Under the pieces are notes generated by a model, which did no database searches, was not told the DNA's origin, and saw nothing but the letters and a program-made list of their open reading frames with translations. This document shows positions 8,864-62,368 of a stretch of DNA of 64,000 nt, in pieces. Both the position numbers and the translations under genes were made by a program. The stretch is from a virus, in the IMG/VR virus record IMGVR_UViG_3300027856_000008, positions 1 through 64,000 of that record. The stretch is one strand, 5' to 3'. The stretch's first letter is position 1. Each line of letters opens with the position of its first letter.

Positions 8864-9012
8864 TGATTGAATTTTCTTATCTATGCGAACATTGGGTCAC
8901 ATACAATAAAAAAACACAGGTTTTGACATTGGATGGTGAAGAAAAAGACATAACCAAATGCTCAAGATTGTTATTGAGAGATATTATTTACTGGCTATCG
9001 GTCGAGGAATAG
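8863..9012 (+). CDS. 49-aa protein directly upstream of the radical SAM gene
   Basis: ATG 8863 overlaps the DUF2786 stop. The ORF ends at 9012, two bases before the radical SAM start, and its last codons contain that gene's GAGGAAT ribosome binding site. The peptide has two cysteines and a WLSVEE end. It could be a small partner or substrate of the radical SAM enzyme; only position supports this. Confidence 0.55.
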   Translation: MIEFSYLCEHWVTYNKKTQVLTLDGEEKDITKCSRLLLRDIIYWLSVEE

Positions 9013-9014
9013 AA

Positions 9015-9788
9015 ATGTTATTAAGAATAACTGATCACTGTAAAATGGCGTGTAATCATTGTTTTATTAATGCTACGCCCAAGGGTAAACATATGGAGTT
9101 TTCAACCTTTATGAACTCCGTTAAATTGGCAAATAAACTAGGGGCTAAGGTGTTGCTTTTATCTGGTGGAGAGCCAACAGATAACCCAAATTTTATAAAG
9201 TTTTTAAATTTTGCTACTTTGAATTTTAGCGGGATCATAACTGTTATTTCTCATGGTGCTTATATTGAAGATAAGGAGCTATGCGATAAATATTTTGGTG
9301 ATTTTCCAAAGGTTCAATATCAAATAACAAATGATAAAAGATACTACCCAAAAAGGTTGAATAGGATCAGGGCTGGTAATGTTGAACGGAAATATAAAAA
9401 CGTTATGTTTTGTTGGGAAATAGGGGGGGAGATATTCCCACAGGGCAGAGCCAGAAAGCATATGAAGATAACCGAAATAAATGCCAAGGTTTTGGGGCCG
9501 AGGTGCTTTAATTTAAGAAGCTTTATTCACCACCCTATGATCCCCGACATAAGCCATGCTATACAGCAACTAGAAAAGGCAGGGAAATTTTGCACACCGT
9601 CTGTAAATATAAATGGCAGTATAGCAATGGGTGAAAGTAACCAATGCCAAGAGACAATGAATATAAAAGATTCTATCTTTGATTTGACTGAAAAGGTTAA
9701 AAATTCAAACTGTAATGATTGCGGTATGTTATCTAAATTATCTGAAACACACCACAGGGCTATAAACTTTAAATGTGAAGGGGTTTAA
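9015..9788 (+). CDS. radical SAM enzyme with SPASM/twitch-like C-terminal cysteines
   Basis: Radical SAM enzymes use a [4Fe-4S] cluster to cleave S-adenosylmethionine and start radical chemistry. The cluster motif CKMACNHC gives C9, C13 and C16 (CX3CX2C) near the N-terminus, followed by LLLSGGEPT, the usual GGEP motif that contacts the SAM amino group. The C-terminal part has further cysteines (FCTPSVNINGSIAMG, then SNQCQ, then SNCNDCG), as in SPASM/twitch auxiliary-cluster domains of peptide-modifying enzymes. ATG 9015 with GAGGAAT is chosen over an ATG at 8958 that lies within another frame. The 257-aa product looks intact. In phages such enzymes are known from base hypermodification pathways; a peptide substrate is the alternative. 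Confidence 0.85.
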   Translation: MLLRITDHCKMACNHCFINATPKGKHMEFSTFMNSVKLANKLGAKVLLLSGGEPTDNPNFIKFLNFATLNFSGIITVISHGAYIEDKELCDKYFGDFPKVQYQITNDKRYYPKRLNRIRAGNVERKYKNVMFCWEIGGEIFPQGRARKHMKITEINAKVLGPRCFNLRSFIHHPMIPDISHAIQQLEKAGKFCTPSVNINGSIAMGESNQCQETMNIKDSIFDLTEKVKNSNCNDCGMLSKLSETHHRAINFKCEGV

Positions 9789-10946: not shown

Positions 10947-12476
10947 ATGGCTAAAGTTAACACGTTACACCCGCTTTATAAACAGAACATAACAGCTTGG
11001 AATAGAGTTCGTGACTGTGTTCAAGGCTCGATAGCCATTAAGGGTAAAGATACTTTGTATTTGCCTATGCCTAGTGGCATGGTTGATGCCCCACCAACAG
11101 CCTTAAATCAAACTTCTTTTGGTTCACGCGAAGAATACCCATTAAGAACAGGTGATCAGGATTTTCAACGACCAACTTGGTCTGGAACAAAAGCCTACGA
11201 GAATTATAAAATAAGGGCTCATTTCCCTGACCTAACTAGTGATACATTGCGTGGCTTAATGGGTGTCGCTTCAAATAAAAACCCGACTTTTATCTTGCCT
11301 AGCAGAATGGAATATTTAAGAGAAAATTCAACTAATGATGGTTTAACCTTACTTCAATTATATTTTAAATTGATTGAGGACGTATTGCAGACAGGACGAA
11401 TTGCTTTAGGTATCGACATTGATGTTGATACGGGGAATTTAGTCTTTCTAACTTATTCAGCCGAGAGTTTTATTAACTGGAAAAATTCTAGCAAAACTAA
11501 TCTATTCACACTCGGAGTATTTAAAGAAACAAACCCTACAAACCCTACAAACGAGGATATGTTTGATCAGTCTATGACTGAAAAGAAAAGGGTTTTATTT
11601 TTAGATGAAAACGGTATTTATACCACGGCAGTTTGGGTTGATGGTGAACAGATAGCGGATAGTTTAATTCAGCCAACCTTACAAGGCAGAGCATTTAATA
11701 AAGTGCCAATCGTGGCTATTGGCTCGACTAATCAAGATCCTGATCCAGATAAGATCCCATTACTTGGCATATCAGATGTTAGCGTACAGATTTACATGAA
11801 AAATGCCGACCTAAATAATGCTGAATTCTTAACTTGTAACCCGACTCTTGTTTTAACTGGCGCAGACTCAAATGAGATCCCGAGTGCTATGGGTTCTACA
11901 GTTGCCCTAACGCTTGCCAATCCTCAAGCAAATGTTTTCTATACCCAAACAGATACAAGCGGTTTAAATCACTGTAAAGAGCATATAAAGGATTTAAAAG
12001 ACGAGGCGCAAATGTATGGCTCTGCAATACTTGGCGATAGTGCTGGTGGTGTTGAAAGTGCCGAGGCATTGAGAGTTAAGCAGGCAAGCCGACAAGCAAG
12101 CTTAATGAGTATTGTTAGAAGTGTTTCAGAAGGGTTACAGACGGGTTTAAATTTAATTGGTGAATGGATGGGTATCGACTCCGATGAAATAACCGTAGAG
12201 ACACCAGATAGGTTCGCAGAAACACTATTAAGTGATAGCGAAAGGCAGCAACTTGTTAGCGAGTGGCAAAATGGAGCAATTTCAATGTCTATCTGGCGGC
12301 ATAACTTGCGTAAAGGTGGAATTATTCCAGACACAGTTGAAGATCAAGCGATAGAGGATGAATTTGATCAAGGCGTATCTGCAATTACAGGGGATCAGAT
12401 AGATGAATCAGAAGATAAACCAAACGTTGATCAGCAGGGAGCTAATGCCCCATCCGGATCGGAAGAAGAAACCTAG
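10947..12476 (+). CDS. portal protein (DUF4055 family)
   Basis: The portal forms the ring through which DNA enters the head and to which the tail attaches. The 509-residue protein begins HPLYKQNITAWNRVRD, and has YLPMPSGM near residue 38, which match the DUF4055 portal family. Its C-terminal 35 residues are acidic and low-complexity. It lies directly before a MuF-like gene, the expected order. GTAAAGATC precedes the ATG. Confidence 0.85.
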   Translation: MAKVNTLHPLYKQNITAWNRVRDCVQGSIAIKGKDTLYLPMPSGMVDAPPTALNQTSFGSREEYPLRTGDQDFQRPTWSGTKAYENYKIRAHFPDLTSDTLRGLMGVASNKNPTFILPSRMEYLRENSTNDGLTLLQLYFKLIEDVLQTGRIALGIDIDVDTGNLVFLTYSAESFINWKNSSKTNLFTLGVFKETNPTNPTNEDMFDQSMTEKKRVLFLDENGIYTTAVWVDGEQIADSLIQPTLQGRAFNKVPIVAIGSTNQDPDPDKIPLLGISDVSVQIYMKNADLNNAEFLTCNPTLVLTGADSNEIPSAMGSTVALTLANPQANVFYTQTDTSGLNHCKEHIKDLKDEAQMYGSAILGDSAGGVESAEALRVKQASRQASLMSIVRSVSEGLQTGLNLIGEWMGIDSDEITVETPDRFAETLLSDSERQQLVSEWQNGAISMSIWRHNLRKGGIIPDTVEDQAIEDEFDQGVSAITGDQIDESEDKPNVDQQGANAPSGSEEET

Positions 12477-12546
12477 TAAACCTAAATCTAGTAAGCAGAA
12501 AAAAGATAAGCCAAAGTCGAATAGGAAGAAAATGAAAAGTGGCTAA
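12445..12546 (+). CDS. possible 33-aa lysine-rich protein overlapping portal and MuF genes
   Basis: ATG 12445 has a good CAGGGAGC site and opens a frame that overlaps the end of the portal and the start of the MuF gene. The product is very basic, with repeated KKP, KPKS and KKDKPKS runs, and no hydrophobic core. It may be a DNA-binding peptide packaged with the head, or a chance ORF. Confidence 0.35.
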   Translation: MPHPDRKKKPSKPKSSKQKKDKPKSNRKKMKSG

Positions 12547-14506
12547 TTATACCGAAGCTGTATTGCGTCATGCGAGTTTTGTTATCCAGACTCAGAACGG
12601 TGAAGCAGCAGCAATGCAACCTTTTATTAATAGGCATATTAAAACTATTCGTAAATGGTTTAGGCAGGGTGAGTTATCGAAATTCACCTTGCAGCGTTTG
12701 GAACAACAATTAAAAATCCTTACCAAAGATATTTCTGCAACAAACCAAGATCTAATTAGCACTGTTAATAGTGATATGGCAGAGGTCGCTATTAACGAAA
12801 TTGCTTTTGAACAGAAGTTATTAAATACAGCTTTTGTTACTGATTTTGTGAGTCCTGCAAAAAACCAAGTTTTAGCCGCAGTTATTGATCAGCCGTTTAA
12901 TGGTCTTGTATTAAAAAAGCACATGGATAAATGGGATCGTCAAACAAAAAGCATTGTTAATACCACTATTAAAGATGGATATGTTGCAGGGCTTAGTAAT
13001 CAGCAGATACAAAAGAAAGTGTTAGGTGATTTGGTTACAAGTAAAAACAAGCCTCCATTTTTTAAAGGTGGTGTGATTAATTCTAAAGTTAGGGCTGATA
13101 TTCGGACGATTGTTAGGTCTGCCACTAATCATACAAGTAATACTGCCAGAGGTGAGGTTTGGAAAGAAAATAATGATGTAATAGCTAGGGTTCAATGGTT
13201 ATCAACTTTTGATAATAGAACGACAACTATTTGTATTTCTTTACATGGTCAGTCATGGACTTTAGCAGAATTACACCCTGTACCACCAGCGCACATGAAT
13301 TGTAGATCTTCTTTGATTGCTATTACGGCAGATGGAGTTGATCCGACTGAGGAAAGATCCGCAAAGGTCGGTATTGCTGGTGGAGAGGATAAAAAGGATC
13401 GTGCTAGAAAACCTAGATCGGCAAGTAGTAAAAAAGCCAGAACAACAGGGGCAGTTGTAAATGCCGATACACCATTCGATAAATTTATATTGTCTCAGCC
13501 TGTATGGTACCAAGAGGATCTTTTAGGTAAACAAAGGGCTTTACTATTAAGACAGGGCAAACTTGATGTTAGAAGCTTGTTCGATTGGAAAAGGAATAAC
13601 GTTAGGACTGTCCAAGGGCTTAAGCGTGTTAGTCAAAAGCCATTAAGTGATGTAAGACCAGATCCACTTAAAGAGATAACGGAAAATCACATTGAACCTA
13701 TAAGAAAGAATAATAAAAACCTAAAGCTGTTGAATAAAAATAAATCTGATTTGAATAAACGATATAAATCAGAGGCGAAAAAAGCACAGGATTTGATCGG
13801 GTTGGTTAACTTAGGAAAAGCGACAGAAAAACAATTGCTTGAACAGGAGCAAAAAGTTAATAATATCGTTGATGAAATTCAGAGTTCATTCAAAGAAATT
13901 GATGCTGCGTCAGCTATTGTAAAAGATGATTTTGCTAATTTGAAAAGGGCAATAATATCGCATCAAAATATTAGCGAGGAACAGCTTGATAAAGCCATTG
14001 ATAAATTGAATTTTAGGCGTGTACCGAGAGATCGAGAAAAGATAGAAAAGGTTTTAAGGGATGTAATGCGTTTTACTGGCTTAAAAGGTTCTAGGGGTGA
14101 GATACCGTTATTAACAGTTCAGAGGTCGAGCGATAGAGCGTTTGCAGACGATATTAATAATATTCTTAATGTTGGTAAGGGTGTCGTACCTAAAACGATA
14201 TGGCATGAGTATGGTCATTTTATCGAATTTAATAGTGGTGATATAAAAAAAGATGCCAATCAATTTATAAACGATACTCGCAAAACAACTAGGCTTGAAT
14301 GGTTGGGCAAGCCCTATGCTATGAGTGAAAGAGCATTTAAGAATGAATGGATCAGCCCGTATGTCGGCAAAATATATCCTGATGGTTTCACAGAGGTTAC
14401 GAGCATGGGGGTTGAAAGGTTTGTAACGGTACAATCAATGATGTCATTTTTTAATAATGATGAAAGGCATTTTTTAAAAATAATTGAGTGGTTATTAAAG
14501 GAATAG
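12539..14506 (+). CDS. MuF-like minor head protein with C-terminal HExxH metallopeptidase-like domain
   Basis: The N-terminal 280 residues carry the Mu gpF/SPP1 gp7 head-morphogenesis pattern, including STFDNRTTTIC, then HPVPPAHMNCRSS. Such proteins sit inside the capsid and may be ejected with DNA. After a basic linker and coiled coil, the C-terminus has HEYGH (H556-H560) and, 60 residues on, TEVTSMGVERF (E619, E626), which read as the zinc-binding HExxH helix and a downstream glutamate of a metallopeptidase. Length is 655 aa, much longer than a bare MuF protein. The GTG start at 12539 follows AGGAAG. MuF proteins often carry variable toxin or enzyme tails; processing of head proteins is another possible role. 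Confidence 0.8.
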   Translation: MANYTEAVLRHASFVIQTQNGEAAAMQPFINRHIKTIRKWFRQGELSKFTLQRLEQQLKILTKDISATNQDLISTVNSDMAEVAINEIAFEQKLLNTAFVTDFVSPAKNQVLAAVIDQPFNGLVLKKHMDKWDRQTKSIVNTTIKDGYVAGLSNQQIQKKVLGDLVTSKNKPPFFKGGVINSKVRADIRTIVRSATNHTSNTARGEVWKENNDVIARVQWLSTFDNRTTTICISLHGQSWTLAELHPVPPAHMNCRSSLIAITADGVDPTEERSAKVGIAGGEDKKDRARKPRSASSKKARTTGAVVNADTPFDKFILSQPVWYQEDLLGKQRALLLRQGKLDVRSLFDWKRNNVRTVQGLKRVSQKPLSDVRPDPLKEITENHIEPIRKNNKNLKLLNKNKSDLNKRYKSEAKKAQDLIGLVNLGKATEKQLLEQEQKVNNIVDEIQSSFKEIDAASAIVKDDFANLKRAIISHQNISEEQLDKAIDKLNFRRVPRDREKIEKVLRDVMRFTGLKGSRGEIPLLTVQRSSDRAFADDINNILNVGKGVVPKTIWHEYGHFIEFNSGDIKKDANQFINDTRKTTRLEWLGKPYAMSERAFKNEWISPYVGKIYPDGFTEVTSMGVERFVTVQSMMSFFNNDERHFLKIIEWLLKE

Positions 14507-42365: not shown

Positions 42366-42932
42366 ATGACGAAAGTTAGGGCTTTAAAAACCAGAAAACA
42401 GATAAATGATGTTGGTGATTTACTGAATAAACATTATGGCAGGCATTTTTTGCAGATGTGGAGATTTGCTGTCAATGTTGGTTTAAGAATGGGTGATGTT
42501 CTTTCAATTTCCATGGAACAGGCAAAGAAGGGGTTAAAAGATGGTCACATAGAAATAAAGGAACAGAAAAAGAAAAAGTACAATAGATTTGATCTAAACA
42601 TTGTTGCCAAGCAAATAATAGAAGAAAGGGTGAAAGAGAATAAAACTGATCTCTGGCTTTTCCAATCTCATGGGAATAATGCCAAGGCTATGGAAAAGCC
42701 CATAAGCAGAAATGCTGTTTATTTGGCATTGAGGGAAGTCGGGCAAATCTATGGTGTTAAGCTTGGAACACACTCAGCAAGAAAAAGCAGGGCGCGTCTA
42801 ATGTATGAATCAGGTGAAACGCTAGAATCAATAGCAAGTGTTTTAAACCATGATGATATAAAAGATACTATCAAATATATTGATATTACTCAGGACGAAA
42901 AAGACAGAACATATCACGAATATGTGATTTAA
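42366..42932 (+). CDS. small tyrosine recombinase (catalytic domain only)
   Basis: The 188-residue protein has the complete set of tyrosine recombinase residues: R41 in GLRMGD, a lysine in KKKKYNRF (68-71), H136 and R139 in THSAR, H162 in LNHDD and the nucleophile Y171 in IKYID. It lacks the N-terminal core-binding and arm-binding domains of phage integrases (normally 300 aa or more). Such short enzymes resolve plasmid multimers or cooperate with other proteins. AAGTAGGAAAA precedes the ATG. Confidence 0.85.
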   Translation: MTKVRALKTRKQINDVGDLLNKHYGRHFLQMWRFAVNVGLRMGDVLSISMEQAKKGLKDGHIEIKEQKKKKYNRFDLNIVAKQIIEERVKENKTDLWLFQSHGNNAKAMEKPISRNAVYLALREVGQIYGVKLGTHSARKSRARLMYESGETLESIASVLNHDDIKDTIKYIDITQDEKDRTYHEYVI

Positions 42933-51459: not shown

Positions 51460-52686
51460 ATGAAAGCAACTACCATAGACAGAAAATTAAGAAGTTTAAA
51501 AACTGGTGAGCGTTTCACTTTACCTGCAACACAGCTAAGTAACGAAGAATATCATAAGGTTAAGGCAGTATCGAGCAGCCGATTAAAAGATCTAATGAAA
51601 GTTCATCCAGCGTATGTTTATGCTAAGTATTTCAAACAACAGATCCCCCGCAAGGTTACCGAGGCTTTTTTAATTGGTGGCGCGACTCATAAGCTTATTT
51701 TAGAAACTAGATCTTTCGGTAAAGAATATATCGTTTTACCAGAAAATAAAAAGCGCCCCACAGAAAAAGGCTTTAATGATTTAAATGGCTATGTCGAAAA
51801 GGCTAATGAAGCAAAAGCAAACGAGCTTTATTGGTTTGAGTTAGATCACCATAACGATAATGTTGAATTGGCAGGGGAGTTAGCAGGGCATAAAAAAGTA
51901 ACTCCCGCACAAGTAAAAATAGTTAGCGAAGCCGAGGATCTTAAAAAGCAATTAGAAGCAGAAGATCGGGAGCCAAAAAAGGCAGAGCAAAACCGTTTAA
52001 ATAAAGCAGAAGAAATAAAAGACAATATTAGCTGGTGGAATAGATATACGGCAAGCATCCGTATACCAGAAGAAGGTAAAAAAAGACCAACAGCATCTTC
52101 AACAAAGGCTATTGAAAAAGGATTAGAAGCAAAAGAAACAATTAATTTTTGGTCTGATTTTGATAAGCAGGCAAAGGGTAAAGAGTGTTTAACAAGGGAA
52201 CAGTATAACGAGGTTGATGGATATAGAAACGCAGTACGAGCGCACCCACAAGCTAACAATCTTTTGAAGGGTGGAGATCCAGAAGTTTCTACTTTTTGGC
52301 GTGACGAAGAAACAGGACTTTTGTGTAAAGCCAGAGCCGATTACAAACAGGGTGATATTTTACTCGATGTGAAAAGTACCGCAGATAACAGCCCCGATGC
52401 CTTTGCTAGACAATGTGCGAACTTGCTTTATAACTTACAACAGGCAATGTATATGGACGGTTTCAGAGCCACAAACTTTGCTTTTGTAGCTGTAGAAAAA
52501 AGCAAGGACTGTCCATTTGTTGAGGTCTATACGATGGACGATGATTTTTTTGATATTGGCAATATAATTTATAGGGATGCTTTAACCCTATATAAAAAGT
52601 GCTTAGATACAGGCGTTTGGAATTCATATAATGATGGAATCGGAACATTAAAAGCACCTAATTGGTTTTCATATAAATATAAATAA
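51460..52686 (+). CDS. RecE/exoVIII-like PD-(D/E)XK exonuclease
   Basis: Phage exonucleases of this type resect double-stranded DNA ends for the annealing protein encoded next. The N-terminal LSNEEYHKVKAVSSSRLKDL and FLIGGATHKLILE, and the catalytic KARAD (D294), then LLDVKST (D303, K305) and NLLYNLQQAMYMDG, match the RecE C-terminal/DUF3799 family. At 408 aa it is longer than usual because of a charged helical insertion around residues 100-235. AAGGGGTTAGTT precedes the ATG. Confidence 0.85.
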   Translation: MKATTIDRKLRSLKTGERFTLPATQLSNEEYHKVKAVSSSRLKDLMKVHPAYVYAKYFKQQIPRKVTEAFLIGGATHKLILETRSFGKEYIVLPENKKRPTEKGFNDLNGYVEKANEAKANELYWFELDHHNDNVELAGELAGHKKVTPAQVKIVSEAEDLKKQLEAEDREPKKAEQNRLNKAEEIKDNISWWNRYTASIRIPEEGKKRPTASSTKAIEKGLEAKETINFWSDFDKQAKGKECLTREQYNEVDGYRNAVRAHPQANNLLKGGDPEVSTFWRDEETGLLCKARADYKQGDILLDVKSTADNSPDAFARQCANLLYNLQQAMYMDGFRATNFAFVAVEKSKDCPFVEVYTMDDDFFDIGNIIYRDALTLYKKCLDTGVWNSYNDGIGTLKAPNWFSYKYK

Positions 52687-52763: not shown

Positions 52764-53642
52764 ATGAATACAGAATTAACTACAAAGACAACTTTTGATT
52801 TAACACCAACGACTTTACAAGAAGCAATGGATCAGGCTCACATGCTTGCTGGTTCAGCCATAATTCCTAAGCAGTTTCAGAATAAACCTCAGGATATTTT
52901 AGTTGCTGTTCAAATGGGCTTAGAAGTTGGTTTAAAGCCTTTACAGGCACTAAAAAATATAGCCGTTATAAATGGAACTCCCACAATTTGGGGGGATGCT
53001 GCCATTGCTATTGTTAGAAAATCCCCCTTATGCGAATCAATAGTTGAAACGATTGATTATAGAAAAATAGGGGATCGGGATATTTTAGTTGCGACCTGTA
53101 CCGTGAAGCGTAGAGGTGAAGAACCACAAACAAGAATATTCGACCAGATAGACGCAGAGACAGCAAAACTATGGGGTCGTAATGTTTGGGCTAGTTATCC
53201 GAAACGTATGCTTCAAATGCGAGCGAGGGGCTTTGCTTTGCGTGATGTATTTCCCGATGTATTAGGTGGCTTGGATATAGCCGAGGAACAACAGGACAAG
53301 GAAGAACGAGACATAACAAATCGTGGTACCGAACAAACTCAAGATCAAAGAAAATCTTCATTGAATGATTTGGCATCTGGAAAGAAACCTAAACCGAAGA
53401 AACAGCCAAAACCTGATCCGGTGATCACAGTTGATCAAGATGGAACTACATTCACACAAAATGAAGCGAATGAATATTTAAACGAGTCGATTTGTGAAAT
53501 GCGAAATTGTTATAGTTACCCTGATTTACAGAAAATCTTTGGTCCGAGTTGGTCTAAGTTAAAACAAACTGGATATAAAGATCTTGCTGAAAAATTAGAG
53601 TCAGAATATCAAGTTTTAAAAGCTGACTTATTGAACGAATAA
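52764..53642 (+). CDS. recT: RecT-like single-strand annealing protein
   Basis: RecT-type proteins anneal complementary strands after exonuclease resection. The core GLEVGLKPLQALKNIAVING, then TIWGDAAIAIVRKSPL and a W-x-x-Y-P-x-R-M-L-x-x-R-A segment (YPKRMLQMRARGFALRD) match the phage RecT family. The C-terminal 100 residues have a Lys/Pro-rich linker and a helical tail. Upstream lies the exonuclease; SSB is encoded 3 kb away. AAAAGGGTTATAAG precedes the ATG. Confidence 0.85.
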   Translation: MNTELTTKTTFDLTPTTLQEAMDQAHMLAGSAIIPKQFQNKPQDILVAVQMGLEVGLKPLQALKNIAVINGTPTIWGDAAIAIVRKSPLCESIVETIDYRKIGDRDILVATCTVKRRGEEPQTRIFDQIDAETAKLWGRNVWASYPKRMLQMRARGFALRDVFPDVLGGLDIAEEQQDKEERDITNRGTEQTQDQRKSSLNDLASGKKPKPKKQPKPDPVITVDQDGTTFTQNEANEYLNESICEMRNCYSYPDLQKIFGPSWSKLKQTGYKDLAEKLESEYQVLKADLLNE

Positions 53643-53666: not shown

Positions 53667-53693
53667 AAAGCCCATTTTAAAGTGGGCTTTTTT
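53667..53693 (+). terminator. rho-independent terminator
   Basis: AAAGCCCA and TGGGCTTT pair across an eight-base loop and end in T residues. It isolates the recombination genes from the curli-like cassette. Confidence 0.8.
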
Positions 53694-53765
53694 ATGTCAA
53701 AAATTTGACAATAGGAGAAACTATACGAAAATTAGGTTTGTCTGCTTTGTGCTATGGGTTAGCAC

Positions 53766-54176
53766 ATGAAATATATTATTTACTTGCTATTACTTATTGT
53801 AATGGCATATGTACCGCAAGCTATTTCTAATGGTTGGTTAGAAAATAGATCTTATCAATTCACATCTACCGATGCACGTTACCTGTTTATCCTTCAAGCA
53901 CAGCAAAAAGAAATTTCCCAAGGTGGTGGATATAATTCTACAGTTAATTTTAATGGCGATATTGGTCAGTTTGGGGATCAATATAACGCTGATCATCAAA
54001 TCTTTAATAATTCTACTTCAATCGGCAATTTAAGTTCTGTTGATGTTTCTGGCGATAATAATTCTGTTAATGGTAACCAAGACAATAATCAGGGTTCTAA
54101 TACTTCGATAGGTCAAACTTTAGATCCTTTCGTTGGCAAAATTGGTGATTCAATTTCATTTGGGAACGGGGGCTAA
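53766..54176 (+). CDS. exported Asn/Gln/Gly-rich protein of the CsgG cassette
   Basis: The N-terminal 20 residues form a Sec signal peptide (IIYLLLLIVMAYVPQAISNG). The mature 115 residues are rich in Asn, Gly, Ser and Gln, with NNSTSIGN and SNTSIGQ, motifs also found in the 55099 product (NTAASIGN). Such composition and repeats recall curlin-type amyloid subunits. It is the first gene of a three-gene operon with the CsgG channel, so it is probably a secreted minor subunit. A late-like AACTATACGA lies at 53719. No match to CsgE or CsgF was seen. Confidence 0.65.
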   Translation: MKYIIYLLLLIVMAYVPQAISNGWLENRSYQFTSTDARYLFILQAQQKEISQGGGYNSTVNFNGDIGQFGDQYNADHQIFNNSTSIGNLSSVDVSGDNNSVNGNQDNNQGSNTSIGQTLDPFVGKIGDSISFGNGG

Positions 54177-54178
54177 CG

Positions 54179-55102
54179 ATGCAAAGCAGACACTTAATTC
54201 ATGCCCTCGTTTCCACCCTTATTTTAGCAACGGGCTGTAATACTATAACGTCAGATATGCTTGATGGTGTTAATAGTGACGCAGCATACAAGAAAACCTA
54301 TGTTAGTAAATATTCTCAGCCACCAGCATTAGTTGATACACCTTTCACGGAGGTTTTACAGTGCTTAGGATCGGACGCTGAAACTGGTGTTTCTGGTGCG
54401 AATTATTTAAATAAATTTAGGTATTCGATTAGCGTTGGAAAGATCGCAGACTTAACAGGCAAGATGAATATTAATTCTAGTATTGGCTCACCTGTTAGTA
54501 ATGGCGCTCAGAACATGCTTACAAGCGCGATAATGTTATCTAATGGCTTTAGGCTGATTAATAGAACTGATACAGCCATAAGTGATTTAGAACGGCATTT
54601 AACAAGTAAGAAGCTTATAAAAGAATATGACCAGAACGATGCTCAAAGGTTGAGATCATTAAGTGCTGGCGAGGTAACGGGGAGTGATTATTATATTTAC
54701 GGCTCGGTTACATCATTTGATTACAATATCGCTAGTGGTGGCTCAGAGGCTATTGTGGCTGGAATAGGTTTAAGAGGTCGTTATTTTGTGGCATCGGCAA
54801 CGATAGATTTGTTCTTGGTGAATACTAGAAGCACAGAAATTTTAAAGTCAGTCTCATTACATAAACAGCTTGTTGGTCGTGAAGTAAAAGCCAACCTGTT
54901 TAGTTTTGATTGGCTTGATAATGAATTCCTCGATTTAAGTTCGGGAATAAAAGAAAGTGAAGCCGCAGGGATCGCATTACGCGCCATGCTTGAAAAATCA
55001 GCTATAGAATTTACTGGTTTTTTATATGATTGGTCGAATGTGCCTGATCGCTGTAAATTTTTATATGCGTCAGCAAATTTAAAAAGAGTGATTGAAGAAT
55101 GA
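54179..55102 (+). CDS. CsgG-like outer-membrane secretion channel lipoprotein
   Basis: CsgG forms a nonameric pore in the outer membrane that exports curli subunits. The 307-residue protein has a lipoprotein signal ending ATGC with cysteine at residue 20. The conserved body is easily followed: FRLINRTD, SDYYIYGSVTSFDYNIASGG, GIGLRGRYFVASATIDLFLVN broken across strands, then SFDWLDNEFLDLSSG and ESEAAGIALRAMLEKSAIEFTGFLYDW, matching the periplasmic fold and membrane hairpins. Length equals host CsgG. GAACGGGGGCTAAC precedes the ATG. It lies between two exported proteins, which fits a dedicated channel. Confidence 0.88.
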   Translation: MQSRHLIHALVSTLILATGCNTITSDMLDGVNSDAAYKKTYVSKYSQPPALVDTPFTEVLQCLGSDAETGVSGANYLNKFRYSISVGKIADLTGKMNINSSIGSPVSNGAQNMLTSAIMLSNGFRLINRTDTAISDLERHLTSKKLIKEYDQNDAQRLRSLSAGEVTGSDYYIYGSVTSFDYNIASGGSEAIVAGIGLRGRYFVASATIDLFLVNTRSTEILKSVSLHKQLVGREVKANLFSFDWLDNEFLDLSSGIKESEAAGIALRAMLEKSAIEFTGFLYDWSNVPDRCKFLYASANLKRVIEE

Positions 55103-55596
55103 AAAAATTAATTTTATTGGGTTTATTTTTGGGTGCGTTTGGTGCTAGTGCGGCAAATGTTAATCTTGGTCAAGCAAACGCAAGTGGTGTTTTAGATTCC
55201 GTTGCGCTGGTTGGTGCGGTTGCTGTTGGTGATGATCTATTAAACACAGGCGCATCTATTGGCAATACTGGCGCTATTACTATTGATGCCACCGCAGCAG
55301 TTGGTTCACTTCAAGCAAACGCAGTTGGTTTTCAGTCTGCCGATGCTCATGTTCGTTGGGCTGGTGTTGATGGTGTTATTGAAAATACAGCGGCAAGTAT
55401 TGGTAATAACTTAACGGTTGATATTGACGAGTGCGGTGCGTGTAGTGACTCTGCGAGTGTGGTTAACTCAGCGCAGTTAAATGCGACTTTGAGCAATACC
55501 GCATTTGCTAGTGTTGGTCTAGCTGGTTTAACTGGCTCGTTGACTAATACAGCGGCAGCAATCGGAAACTCAGCTACAATAACAATTACAAATTAA
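55099..55596 (+). CDS. exported repeat protein, putative curlin-like subunit
   Basis: Overlaps csgG by four bases (ATGA). A signal peptide (KKLILLGLFLGAFGASA) precedes a mature protein of three imperfect repeats with spacing of about 47 and 54 residues. Each contains QANA or QLNA and ends in NTxASIGN (at about 49, 96 and 150) followed by a TITI strand. Such regular strand-turn repeats suggest a beta-solenoid or amyloid fold. Two cysteines (112 and 115) lie between repeats two and three. It is the most likely substrate of the adjacent CsgG channel. Confidence 0.7.
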   Translation: MKKLILLGLFLGAFGASAANVNLGQANASGVLDSVALVGAVAVGDDLLNTGASIGNTGAITIDATAAVGSLQANAVGFQSADAHVRWAGVDGVIENTAASIGNNLTVDIDECGACSDSASVVNSAQLNATLSNTAFASVGLAGLTGSLTNTAAAIGNSATITITN

Positions 55597-55612
55597 TTTG
55601 TGTTTGAGTTCT

Positions 55613-55642
55613 AAAAAAGCCAGTTTAATAGCTGGCTTTTTT
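55613..55642 (+). terminator. rho-independent terminator
   Basis: AAAAGCCAG and CTGGCTTTTT pair around TTTAATAG. It closes the CsgG cassette, so the three genes form a unit with terminators on both sides. Confidence 0.8.
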
Positions 55643-55698
55643 TATGGTTTTAGATAATTGGTCTAATATTAATGAGCGATAAATAAAAGGGTTTGACT

Positions 55699-56151
55699 AT
55701 GACAAGACCTACACTAAGTATCAATAAAGCGGCTTTGAAGAAAAGCCGAGCAGCGAAACAGCAATTAGAAATAAGCACTAGAACACCATCTAAAGCAAAG
55801 AAAATGAGGCGTAAGCAGCAAGAATTAATGATAGAGTTTTTAGGTCGGCATTATCCCCTTGTTTTTAATCTTGATGAACCATTACCGCTTAAGATAGGCA
55901 TATTAAAAGATTTGATCCGCATCACTATTTGCTATGGGTTTAGCGCAATGGACACCCGAAGGGCAATATATTTCTGGACTAACCGATTCGAGTATCATGC
56001 CTGTGTAGCAAATGGCGAGTATAGATTTGATCTTGATGGAGCGCACCATAGCTTAATAACTGATGAACATAAAAGCCATTCTAAAGTGACAGTTGCTAAT
56101 ACTTTGAGAAATAAAAAGAAAAAGCAGCAAGGAAGTAAGAAACGGAAGTAA
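55699..56151 (+). CDS. ProQ/FinO-domain RNA-binding protein
   Basis: ProQ/FinO proteins bind structured RNAs and control plasmid and host mRNAs. After a basic N-terminus, residues 45-115 read FLGRHYPLVFNLDEPLPLKIGILKDL (broken at PLP), then FSAMDTRRAIYFWTNRFEYH, the ProQ domain. The C-terminus is Lys-rich. ATG 55699 follows AAAAGGGTTTG. It could stabilise phage RNAs or act on the host's sRNA network. Confidence 0.8.
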   Translation: MTRPTLSINKAALKKSRAAKQQLEISTRTPSKAKKMRRKQQELMIEFLGRHYPLVFNLDEPLPLKIGILKDLIRITICYGFSAMDTRRAIYFWTNRFEYHACVANGEYRFDLDGAHHSLITDEHKSHSKVTVANTLRNKKKKQQGSKKRK

Positions 56152-56430: not shown

Positions 56431-57417
56431 ATGTCCATAGAATCACATTCGCCTACGGAAATAACAAACGCTGGTTTTCATTACACATCATTACCAACAG
56501 AACTTGGCAGATTAATAGCTGAAAAATACGGTCTTGAAGCAGTCGGGTTGTGGTGGCTTTTTACTGGTATGTCTAAAGATTATGTAATCAATAAACAACA
56601 TGCCTGTGATAAATACCATTTAAGCCCCGCAAGGTTCACAAAAGCAATGAGGGCATTAGAAACGTTCGAGCTTGCTTGGATTGAAGCAAGACCAAGGCAA
56701 ACCAGCGGAAAGCTAGGTGGCAAGAGTTGGACTATCAGCAATTTACCCAAATCAGTAACCGAAGCACTTAATAAAGCCATTGATTTTATGAGGAATATTA
56801 CCGACCCTATAGAAAATGAGGGGGTCGGTAAAACTGATATTAACCGACCCCCCATAAAACCGAGGGGTCAGAAAACCGAGGGGTCAGAAACATGGGGGGA
56901 TATAAGTAAGGATCAATCTTTAAGTAAGGATCAAGAAAGAAGTAGTGATCTGGCAAATCAGAAATTACCACCAGCACTAAGGCCAAAGAAAAAACAAAAA
57001 GCGACTACTGCTGAATTCTTAAATTTTAAAGACGGTTTTGAACAGGCTCCCGTAAAAATTGGATGCCAAACGATAGGGGTTCAAACCGAATGGGATAGTT
57101 TTATAAATCATTACACCTTGAACGGAAGAACTAAAACGCTCTCAAGTTGGATCTCAGCGTGGGAAAGGTGGCTAGTGAAGGGTTTAGAGCATGAGAGTAA
57201 TAAAACGCGCCAGAATAGCGCACAAGAGCTAGAATCTAATAAAATCGATGATACTAAAGAAGCTTTGAACAAGATAATCGATGGTTTGGTTACTAAAAAA
57301 TCTCAAATGACCAATAGCGTCTGGTGCGATATTCAAGAACGAATTCTACATAAGGGCTTTAAAAAACCTGATACCTATAAAAAATTAAGCAGCCTCGGAT
57401 TTGTGGTTTTGCCATGA
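56431..57417 (+). CDS. replication protein, DnaT/O-like
   Basis: The 328-residue protein has an N-terminal winged-helix domain (EKYGLEAVGLWWLF, then CDKYHLSPARFTKAMRALE) as in phage O-type initiators. A linker with repeated SKDQ and RPPIKPRG stretches follows. Residues 230-265 hold the DnaT-like WDSFINHYTLNG and LSSWISAWERWLVKG. Such proteins recruit the host helicase at the phage origin. AAGGGGTTATTAAA precedes the ATG. It gives the genome a second initiator-like gene besides RepL. Confidence 0.65.
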   Translation: MSIESHSPTEITNAGFHYTSLPTELGRLIAEKYGLEAVGLWWLFTGMSKDYVINKQHACDKYHLSPARFTKAMRALETFELAWIEARPRQTSGKLGGKSWTISNLPKSVTEALNKAIDFMRNITDPIENEGVGKTDINRPPIKPRGQKTEGSETWGDISKDQSLSKDQERSSDLANQKLPPALRPKKKQKATTAEFLNFKDGFEQAPVKIGCQTIGVQTEWDSFINHYTLNGRTKTLSSWISAWERWLVKGLEHESNKTRQNSAQELESNKIDDTKEALNKIIDGLVTKKSQMTNSVWCDIQERILHKGFKKPDTYKKLSSLGFVVLP

Positions 57418-61149: not shown

Positions 61150-61586
61150 ATGATTTCAGTTTAGTTTTACAATCAGTATGTTTGAAAACACACACAGTCG
61201 GTAAGTTATTTATTTGTCATGTGGGGAAAGATCCAGAATTCTTTTGTTTTACTCTTGAGCGTCCGTGGCTCGGCAATAAGGCGCATATCTCTTGCATCCC
61301 ATATGGTGAATATGTTTTGAAAAGCCACAAAAGCCCGAAGTTTGGCAGATGCTATTATTTACAATCTCGTATCTCTGGTGTTGTGGGTTTAAATTATGGA
61401 GCTAGAACGCACATTCTAATCCATCCAGCGAACAGGGCTAGTGAATTGCATGGGTGTATTGCTTTGGGTTCAATGGACGGCATTTTAAGTGGAGAATTCG
61501 CTATTTTGAATAGTAGAAAAACCGTTAATAAGTTACATGAATTGCTTGGCGGTAGAGATACGCTGATAACAATAATGGAACGTTAA
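61146..61586 (+). CDS. DUF5675-like putative lysin
   Basis: ATG 61146 overlaps the holin stop. The 146-residue protein has FTLERPWLGN, then CIPYGEYVLKSHKSPKFG and ILIHPANRASELHGCIALG, matching DUF5675, which resembles L,D-transpeptidase-like folds with the H...GC.xxG signature. Placement after a holin suggests peptidoglycan degradation, but enzymatic activity of the family is unproven as far as I know. Confidence 0.65.
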   Translation: MNDFSLVLQSVCLKTHTVGKLFICHVGKDPEFFCFTLERPWLGNKAHISCIPYGEYVLKSHKSPKFGRCYYLQSRISGVVGLNYGARTHILIHPANRASELHGCIALGSMDGILSGEFAILNSRKTVNKLHELLGGRDTLITIMER

Positions 61587-62368
61587 TGAAAAATCCAGAA
61601 TTCCATACCTATAAAATTGTAGATATTAATTCTTTGATCCCGTATGTGACTAATGCAAGAACGCATGAACAATGGCAGATAGCACAAATCAGGGGAAGTA
61701 TAAAAGAGTTTGGATTTACGAACCCTGTTCTTATTGAGCCAGACGGTTCGATAATTGCGGGGCATGGTCGAGTTCTGGCAGCATTAGATCTAGGTTTTGA
61801 AGAATTACCCGCTATAGAAATAAAAGGGCTCACTAAGGCTAAAAAGGCCAAATTAGTTATAGCGGATAATCAATTTGCTCTTAATGCTGGTTGGGATCTT
61901 GGTATTTTAAAATCAGAGTTAGAATTTATACAAGAAGCTGGCGAGGACATTGGTGAACTGGGTTTCGATGATAAATTTTTAAATGATTTATTTGAACGTG
62001 GTGACGATGATAGTTCGTATACCAAAAAAATAGATGCCCCGTTATATGAACCTACAGGCGAAAAGCCAGATATTATAAAAGTCTATAATACAGAAAAAAC
62101 AGATCAGCTACTTAGTGAAATAAAAGGTTCAGACTTGCCAGATGGTGTAAGGGATTTCTTGATCGCTGCCGCATACCGACATACTAAATTTAATTATGAA
62201 CAGATTGCAGAATTTTATGCTCAATCAAATGCGGATATTCAAGAACTAATGGAGAGTAGCGCACTTGTTATAATTGATTTCGATAGAGCTATTGCAGATG
62301 GTTATGTTCGATTAAATGATGCGGTCACAGAGCTATACCAGCGTGAAAATGGCGAAGCTGATGAATGA
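61586..62368 (+). CDS. ParB-like nuclease-domain protein of the DNA-modification cluster
   Basis: The ParB/Srx N-terminal domain is clear: NARTHEQWQIAQIRGSIKEFG (broken at SIKEFG), IIAGHGRVLAALDLG with GHGR at 59-62, and IADNQFALNAGWDLGIL. In modification systems this domain often guides a DNA methyltransferase or glycosyltransferase. The C-terminal 120 residues include RHTKFNYEQIAEFYAQ and ALVIIDFDRAI. The glycosyltransferase gene overlaps its end. It differs from a plasmid ParB and has no HTH. Confidence 0.8.
   Translation: MKNPEFHTYKIVDINSLIPYVTNARTHEQWQIAQIRGSIKEFGFTNPVLIEPDGSIIAGHGRVLAALDLGFEELPAIEIKGLTKAKKAKLVIADNQFALNAGWDLGILKSELEFIQEAGEDIGELGFDDKFLNDLFERGDDDSSYTKKIDAPLYEPTGEKPDIIKVYNTEKTDQLLSEIKGSDLPDGVRDFLIAAAYRHTKFNYEQIAEFYAQSNADIQELMESSALVIIDFDRAIADGYVRLNDAVTELYQRENGEADE

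Follow-up and report, generated by a model that had tools for sequence, protein, structure and literature searches.

A probable HfaABD-like module with a CsgG/HfaB-family channel in a phage genome

The stretch of DNA analysed here (the window) comprises 64,000 of the 64,803 bases of an IMG/VR virus record, and no terminal direct repeat of 15-399 bases was found in it. Three co-directional genes, A, B and D, make up a compact unit at 53766-55596 with an intrinsic terminator on each side, as the first-pass annotation of this DNA had described (Table 1). The start of B lies two bases past the stop of A, and D overlaps B by 4 bases (ATGA). We regard the candidate promoter in front of A as weak, since promoter-like matches in the region occur at chance level (17 found, 15 expected). 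Upstream of the cassette are an exonuclease VIII-like gene (51460-52686) and then a RecT-like gene (52764-53642). Directly downstream is a homologue of the ProQ/FinO-family RNA chaperones (55693-56151; PF04352, 5.7e-21), followed by a gene at 56431-57417 for which only marginal matches were obtained. The structural genes (terminase, portal, capsid, tape measure and tail) occupy about 2.5-41 kb of the window, with A and D outside this block. Matches to the capsid, portal, tail and RecT proteins were all distant and came from mixed hosts.

Table 1. Features of the A-B-D cassette, in window positions.
Feature	Position	Strand	Basis
Intrinsic terminator, left cassette edge; ends upstream exonuclease/RecT unit	53667..53690	+	10-pair stem with T-run
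Possible sigma-70 promoter of cassette, TTGACA-16-GAAAAT (weak)	53705..53732	+	10/12 consensus positions
Gene A: secreted N/G/S-rich protein, 136 aa, probable HfaA-like partner	53766..54176	+	Signal peptide by eye, profiles
Shared-motif copy in A, NSTSIGNLSS	54009..54038	+	Motif scan
Gene B: CsgG/HfaB-family outer-membrane export channel, 307 aa, probable lipoprotein	54179..55102	+	PF03783, NF037935
Gene D: secreted three-repeat beta protein, 165 aa, HfaD-like partner	55099..55596	+	Profiles, AlphaFold2 model
D repeat 1, core of NTGASIGN	55243..55265	+	23-nt repeat
D repeat 2, core of NTAASIGN	55384..55406	+	23-nt repeat
D repeat 3, core of NTAAAIGN	55546..55568	+	23-nt repeat
Intrinsic terminator, right cassette edge	55613..55642	+	13-pair stem with T-run

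Elsewhere in the window we observed two adjoining genes for YecR-like lipoproteins (1575-1880 and 1980-2318; PF13992, 7.7e-23 and 8.5e-5) and, near the structural genes, one for a radical SAM protein (8958-9788; PF04055, 5.2e-11). The product of 62316-63236 matches the beta-glucosyl-HMC-alpha-glucosyltransferase family (phrog_842, 5.5e-61), which hints at DNA-base modification.

The middle gene had been proposed to encode a CsgG-like channel, and B does belong to the CsgG superfamily. It matches the Pfam CsgG family PF03783 at E=2.8e-22 (79.5 bits, cut-off 20.8), carries a lipobox-like LILATGC, and can be aligned over residues 84-275 with the solved CsgG channel (PDB 4uv2). Within the superfamily, B is closer to HfaB than to CsgG according to curated models, motifs and a tree. 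The best of all NCBIfam models was that of HfaB (NF037935; 5.2e-47, 160.3 bits under a curated cut-off of 300, covering positions 20-262 of 264), against 46 bits for the curated CsgG model; a further match was to phrog_20175 (1.4e-37). In an alignment B displayed Cys62 and the motifs GSDYYI, DTxxxxxE and KQxxGxE, all typical of HfaB proteins and missing from the two CsgG proteins compared. A 100/100 branch of the 69-row tree separates B, on the HfaB side, from two CsgG proteins. The branch of B itself is very long (5.95), so that the tree places it on the HfaB side as a whole and gives no firm position inside it.

The closest phage relatives of B are found in Brevundimonas and Caulobacter jumbo phages, at about 32-35% identity. 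Single-sequence scans of IMG/VR with B, A or the capsid protein returned no matches; relatives of B were found with alignment queries. Among 369 genomes of the Solimonas class (Gammaproteobacteria), a strong HfaB-like gene was present in Solimonas only. The HfaB-like channels of two metagenomic viruses, L098 (2821-4137) and L110 (4866-6275), end in a C-terminal SPOR domain (PF05036, 4.9e-7 in L098 and 0.0078, below cut-off, in L110), which suggests that these channels are directed to septal or polar peptidoglycan. Contig C16 of Caulobacter OR37 (L097) contains two tandem HfaB paralogues at about 11503-13318 (405 and 427 bits) besides its hfaABD operon. The CsgG relative in a 1.5-kb 'Salmonella phage' record (L007, OR851715), a low-coverage contig marked unverified, is probably host DNA.

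D begins with a Sec signal, recognised by eye (MKKLILLGLFLGAFGASA). A profile of 43 downstream partners matched D at E=7e-7, and an enlarged profile at 2.5e-8 (29.3 bits, whereas none of 5000 shuffles exceeded 11.1 bits). D was also the top match of both bacteria-only half-profiles (E=0.0011 and 0.0065). The HfaD model NF037936 gave no match to D at E<=10. The NCBIfam HfaD model did match the phage D proteins of CcrColossus (1.5e-5) and of the metagenomic virus L073 (3.4e-5), both below cut-off, and this independent model links the D family to HfaD with these two proteins as the bridge. Judged by family profiles, D is homologous to HfaD-like proteins.

The AlphaFold2 model of D is all-beta, with nine strands in three repeats (pLDDT 61, pTM 0.50). 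In a Foldseek search of the PDB with this pLDDT 61 model, the Pseudomonas fibril subunit FapC (9u4u) was the sole match under E=0.001 (E=1.3e-4, prob 1.00, TM 0.35-0.38); a CsgA fibril came next at E=0.11. This favours a repeat-beta and possibly amyloid-like subunit, a reading to be taken cautiously, as one of the five models was far better than the others. For A, prediction yielded no usable model (pLDDT 44, pTM 0.18).

A likewise opens with a Sec signal by eye (MKYIIYLLLLIVMAYVPQA). Neither A nor D had a match in Pfam, or in NCBIfam even at E=10, and A gave none at E<=10 to the HfaA model NF037934. A profile of 11 upstream partners from phages, Nevskiaceae and Alphaproteobacteria matched A at E=1e-10 (37.8 bits, next open reading frame at 0.9), a score equalled by none of 2000 shuffles. 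With a larger, 14-member profile A scored 1e-5, barely over the best shuffle, and it was missed by bacteria-only profiles. Given this mixed outcome, we consider A to be probably homologous to HfaA-like proteins, a likely relationship that draws on one small profile together with genomic context. The sequence after the signal peptide (SYQFTSTDAR...; SFQFRNP... in L073) recalls the CsgF N-terminus. A CsgF-like head on A was nevertheless rejected: a 38-residue profile gave CsgF 5.7 bits and A 6.1 bits, neither significant, shuffles reached up to 12.3 bits, the profile-profile probability was 4.8%, and Pfam CsgF did not match.

The first-pass annotation had drawn attention to a motif of the form NTxSIGN common to the two exported products, and both carry it. 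In D, a 23-nt repeat recurs at intervals of 141 and 162 nt, and its three copies encode TGASIGNT, TAASIGNN and TAAAIGNS; A contains NSTSIGN. There are three matches to the pattern [AS][IVFLM]GN in D and no more than two in A, where a further copy reads SIGQ; of the 70 open frames with 100 codons or more on the + strand of the window, only 3 contain it. Shuffled sequences reached the motif count of the protein in 0.3% of trials for A and 0.015% for D. The same motif, mostly as [S/T]A[I/V]GN, is present in HfaA (GSTAIGNNLT) and HfaD (VSTAVGNNAG and others) of Caulobacter OR37, and in every viral D protein examined. The motif of the window is therefore real and accounted for by the HfaA and HfaD families; by sequence comparison, NTxSIGN represents a diverged form of the repeat [S/T]A[I/V]GN that these two families share. 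The motif of the pair put forward as the new point is therefore no novelty of this phage.

The partnership of the three genes is conserved in other viruses. The A-B-D order, a small secreted gene, the channel and a larger secreted gene, recurs in CcrColossus, CcrPW and Brevundimonas jumbo phages, and in four metagenomic viral contigs (L072, L073, L110 and L111). It is also found in many Alphaproteobacteria, among them Caulobacter, where these genes form the hfaA-hfaB-hfaD operon of the holdfast anchor. The operon of Caulobacter OR37 served as positive control: its products match the NCBIfam HfaA, HfaB and HfaD models above cut-off, with HfaA at 153.7 bits (NF037934). When 63 bacterial loci were tested with two-fold hold-out, an A protein was recovered upstream in 49, a D protein downstream in 35 and both in 31. 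A Vibrio alginolyticus replicon, judged from its gene content to be a phage-plasmid, encodes B and D followed by a likely A (order B-D-A). The same B-D-A arrangement, again with A as a likely assignment, is found on the Photobacterium plasmid pPGC22 (L107, L104). A Loktanella plasmid locus with A and B was not counted as a full module, because the gene downstream is not a D homologue.

Beyond the gene content, the family of B and the homology of D, which these comparisons establish, we consider it likely that the cassette is a phage-borne HfaABD-like module that exports A and D through B for surface anchoring on the carrying cell. As a CsgG/HfaB-family lipoprotein, B would assemble into an outer-membrane channel. 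A and D would reach the periplasm by Sec and, by analogy with HfaA and HfaD of Caulobacter, would then cross B. Outside they may remain as an anchored, beta-rich and possibly amyloid-like assembly, as their Caulobacter counterparts do. Such a module could alter the surface of the carrying cell through adhesion, exopolysaccharide retention or receptor masking, to the presumed benefit of the phage. On this analogy, the module most likely exports a proteinaceous adhesin and anchors it to the surface of the cell that carries the phage.

The first-pass annotation had read the locus as a curli-like cassette. In that reading the module is a reduced type VIII system in which A and D are analogues of CsgB and CsgA; fibres of the curli type, which have been proposed for pelagiphages, would then be made by the phage. 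The superfamily match of B and its alignment with 4uv2 agree with it, as does the weak match of the D model to the CsgA fibril, and complete curli sets do exist in pelagiphages (PMC9599517). However, the pelagiphage sets include CsgF and FecR, and B is much closer to HfaB than to CsgG. Profiles of A and D found nothing above noise in CsgA or CsgB (CsgA at E=0.076 with an enlarged profile), and Pfam detected no curlin repeats in A or D. CsgE and CsgF were without a match in any open reading frame of the window, as had been noted at the outset. Lacking CsgE, CsgF and curlin-repeat substrates, the cassette falls outside curli proper. What stands of the curli-like description is a CsgG-superfamily channel flanked by two exported proteins; its nearest relative is HfaABD and not CsgA, CsgB and CsgG, and we think a reduced curli system unlikely.

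It has also been proposed, for CsgGF of the OM43 phage Melnitz, that such a pore opens or depolarises the outer membrane for lysis (PMC9004378); in the window, A and D would then act as plugs or regulators of B. Against this, the cassette lies between the exonuclease/RecT genes and the ProQ homologue, with its own terminators and not in a late block, and a lysis pore leaves unexplained why two secreted repeat proteins are kept with B across several viral groups. We regard it as improbable. A and D could instead be virion or receptor-binding components whose assembly B assists, with no host surface structure formed. Repeat-rich beta proteins are common in phage tails, and phage structural proteins often go unannotated. 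Yet A and D bear Sec signal peptides by eye, are encoded outside the structural block, and have homologues that adjoin HfaB-like genes in many bacterial genomes, and a virion role seems very improbable to us.

A surface-anchoring module would fit what can be seen of the lifestyle of its carriers. The cassette, a transcription unit complete in itself, lies in the non-structural half of what may be a temperate siphovirus, and its likely use is therefore to modify the surface of the cell that carries it. Also encoded in the window are a ParA-family ATPase (366-1037; phrog_164, 2.4e-43), a tyrosine recombinase (42366-42932) and a ParB-like protein (61586-62368), which point to a possible extrachromosomal, phage-plasmid lifestyle; the recombinase is short, at 188 aa, and lacks the N-terminal region found in phage integrases. 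The subfamily Dolichocephalovirinae, to which the Caulobacter and Brevundimonas carriers belong, is able to persist in the form of episomal pseudolysogens (PMC12195562), and phage phiCbK separately manipulates holdfast regulation via TgrL (PMC10688885). These observations, together with the Vibrio phage-plasmid, are compatible with a role in the carried state. More speculatively, HfaABD-like modules may be recurrent accessory genes of unrelated episomal viruses, in which an anchored amyloid-like adhesin coat changes attachment or susceptibility to other phages; we put this forward tentatively, as an idea that is at present rather doubtful.

CsgG/HfaB genes have already been annotated singly in phages such as CcrPW and CcrColossus, so the novelty lies in the recognition of the complete module, in its spread, and in the very divergent small version described here. 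We found no report of a complete HfaABD-like module in phages in the open-licence literature, including that on CcrColossus or Brevundimonas phage curli, and the main text of the phiCbK/Colossus genome paper makes no mention of csgG, curli or hfa. Phage CsgG has so far been discussed in terms of marine-phage curli, for which hypotheses on fibres, lysis and uptake have been advanced. A second lineage, separate and holdfast-anchor-like, with both substrates and carried by Caulobacter and Brevundimonas jumbo phages, a Vibrio phage-plasmid and several metagenomic viruses, would, if true, mean that phages have repeatedly acquired surface-anchor modules. As module-bearing Caulobacter phages are in culture, the effect on adhesion and phage entry is directly testable. 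D of the window offers a minimal, divergent HfaD-like substrate for structural study of how HfaB-type channels choose and anchor their cargo.

Set against known systems, the three-repeat D model best matches FapC, the fibril subunit of the functional amyloid Fap of Pseudomonas, a likeness confined to the level of fold and drawn from a moderate-confidence model. Fap exports through the FapF channel and not CsgG, whereas the channel of the window is of the CsgG superfamily. The pelagiphage curli cluster, for example in HTVC008M, similarly combines a phage-encoded CsgG-superfamily channel with repeat proteins, but has a true CsgG with CsgF, FecR and adenylate cyclase, and other substrates. The Vibrio phage-plasmid (NZ_CP119337) shows B and D with the same 4-base overlap and a likely A adjoining; it differs in gene order, is a 93-kb circle and has no match to the portal protein of the window. 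Closer in layout are the cassettes of Dolichocephalovirinae (CcrColossus gp241-243, CcrPW, Domovoi, Kabachok and Bambus), which are phage-borne, have the A-B-D order and are annotated only as a CsgG-like or hfaB gene amid hypotheticals. These phages, unlike the virus of the window, are jumbo phages of Caulobacter and Brevundimonas, and their D is about twice as long. Among the genes of the window we recognised none for holdfast synthesis. In Caulobacter, HfaB is needed for the surface targeting of HfaA and HfaD, and HfaA multimers are SDS-resistant (PMC6707917). The window has in common with Caulobacter HfaABD the gene order, a CsgG/HfaB channel between two secreted proteins and [S/T]A[I/V]GN in both of these. 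Its module differs in being phage-borne and in the length of D (165 aa against about 396), and A, B and D lie far under the curated HfaA, HfaB and HfaD cut-offs, so we name the module HfaABD-like rather than HfaABD.
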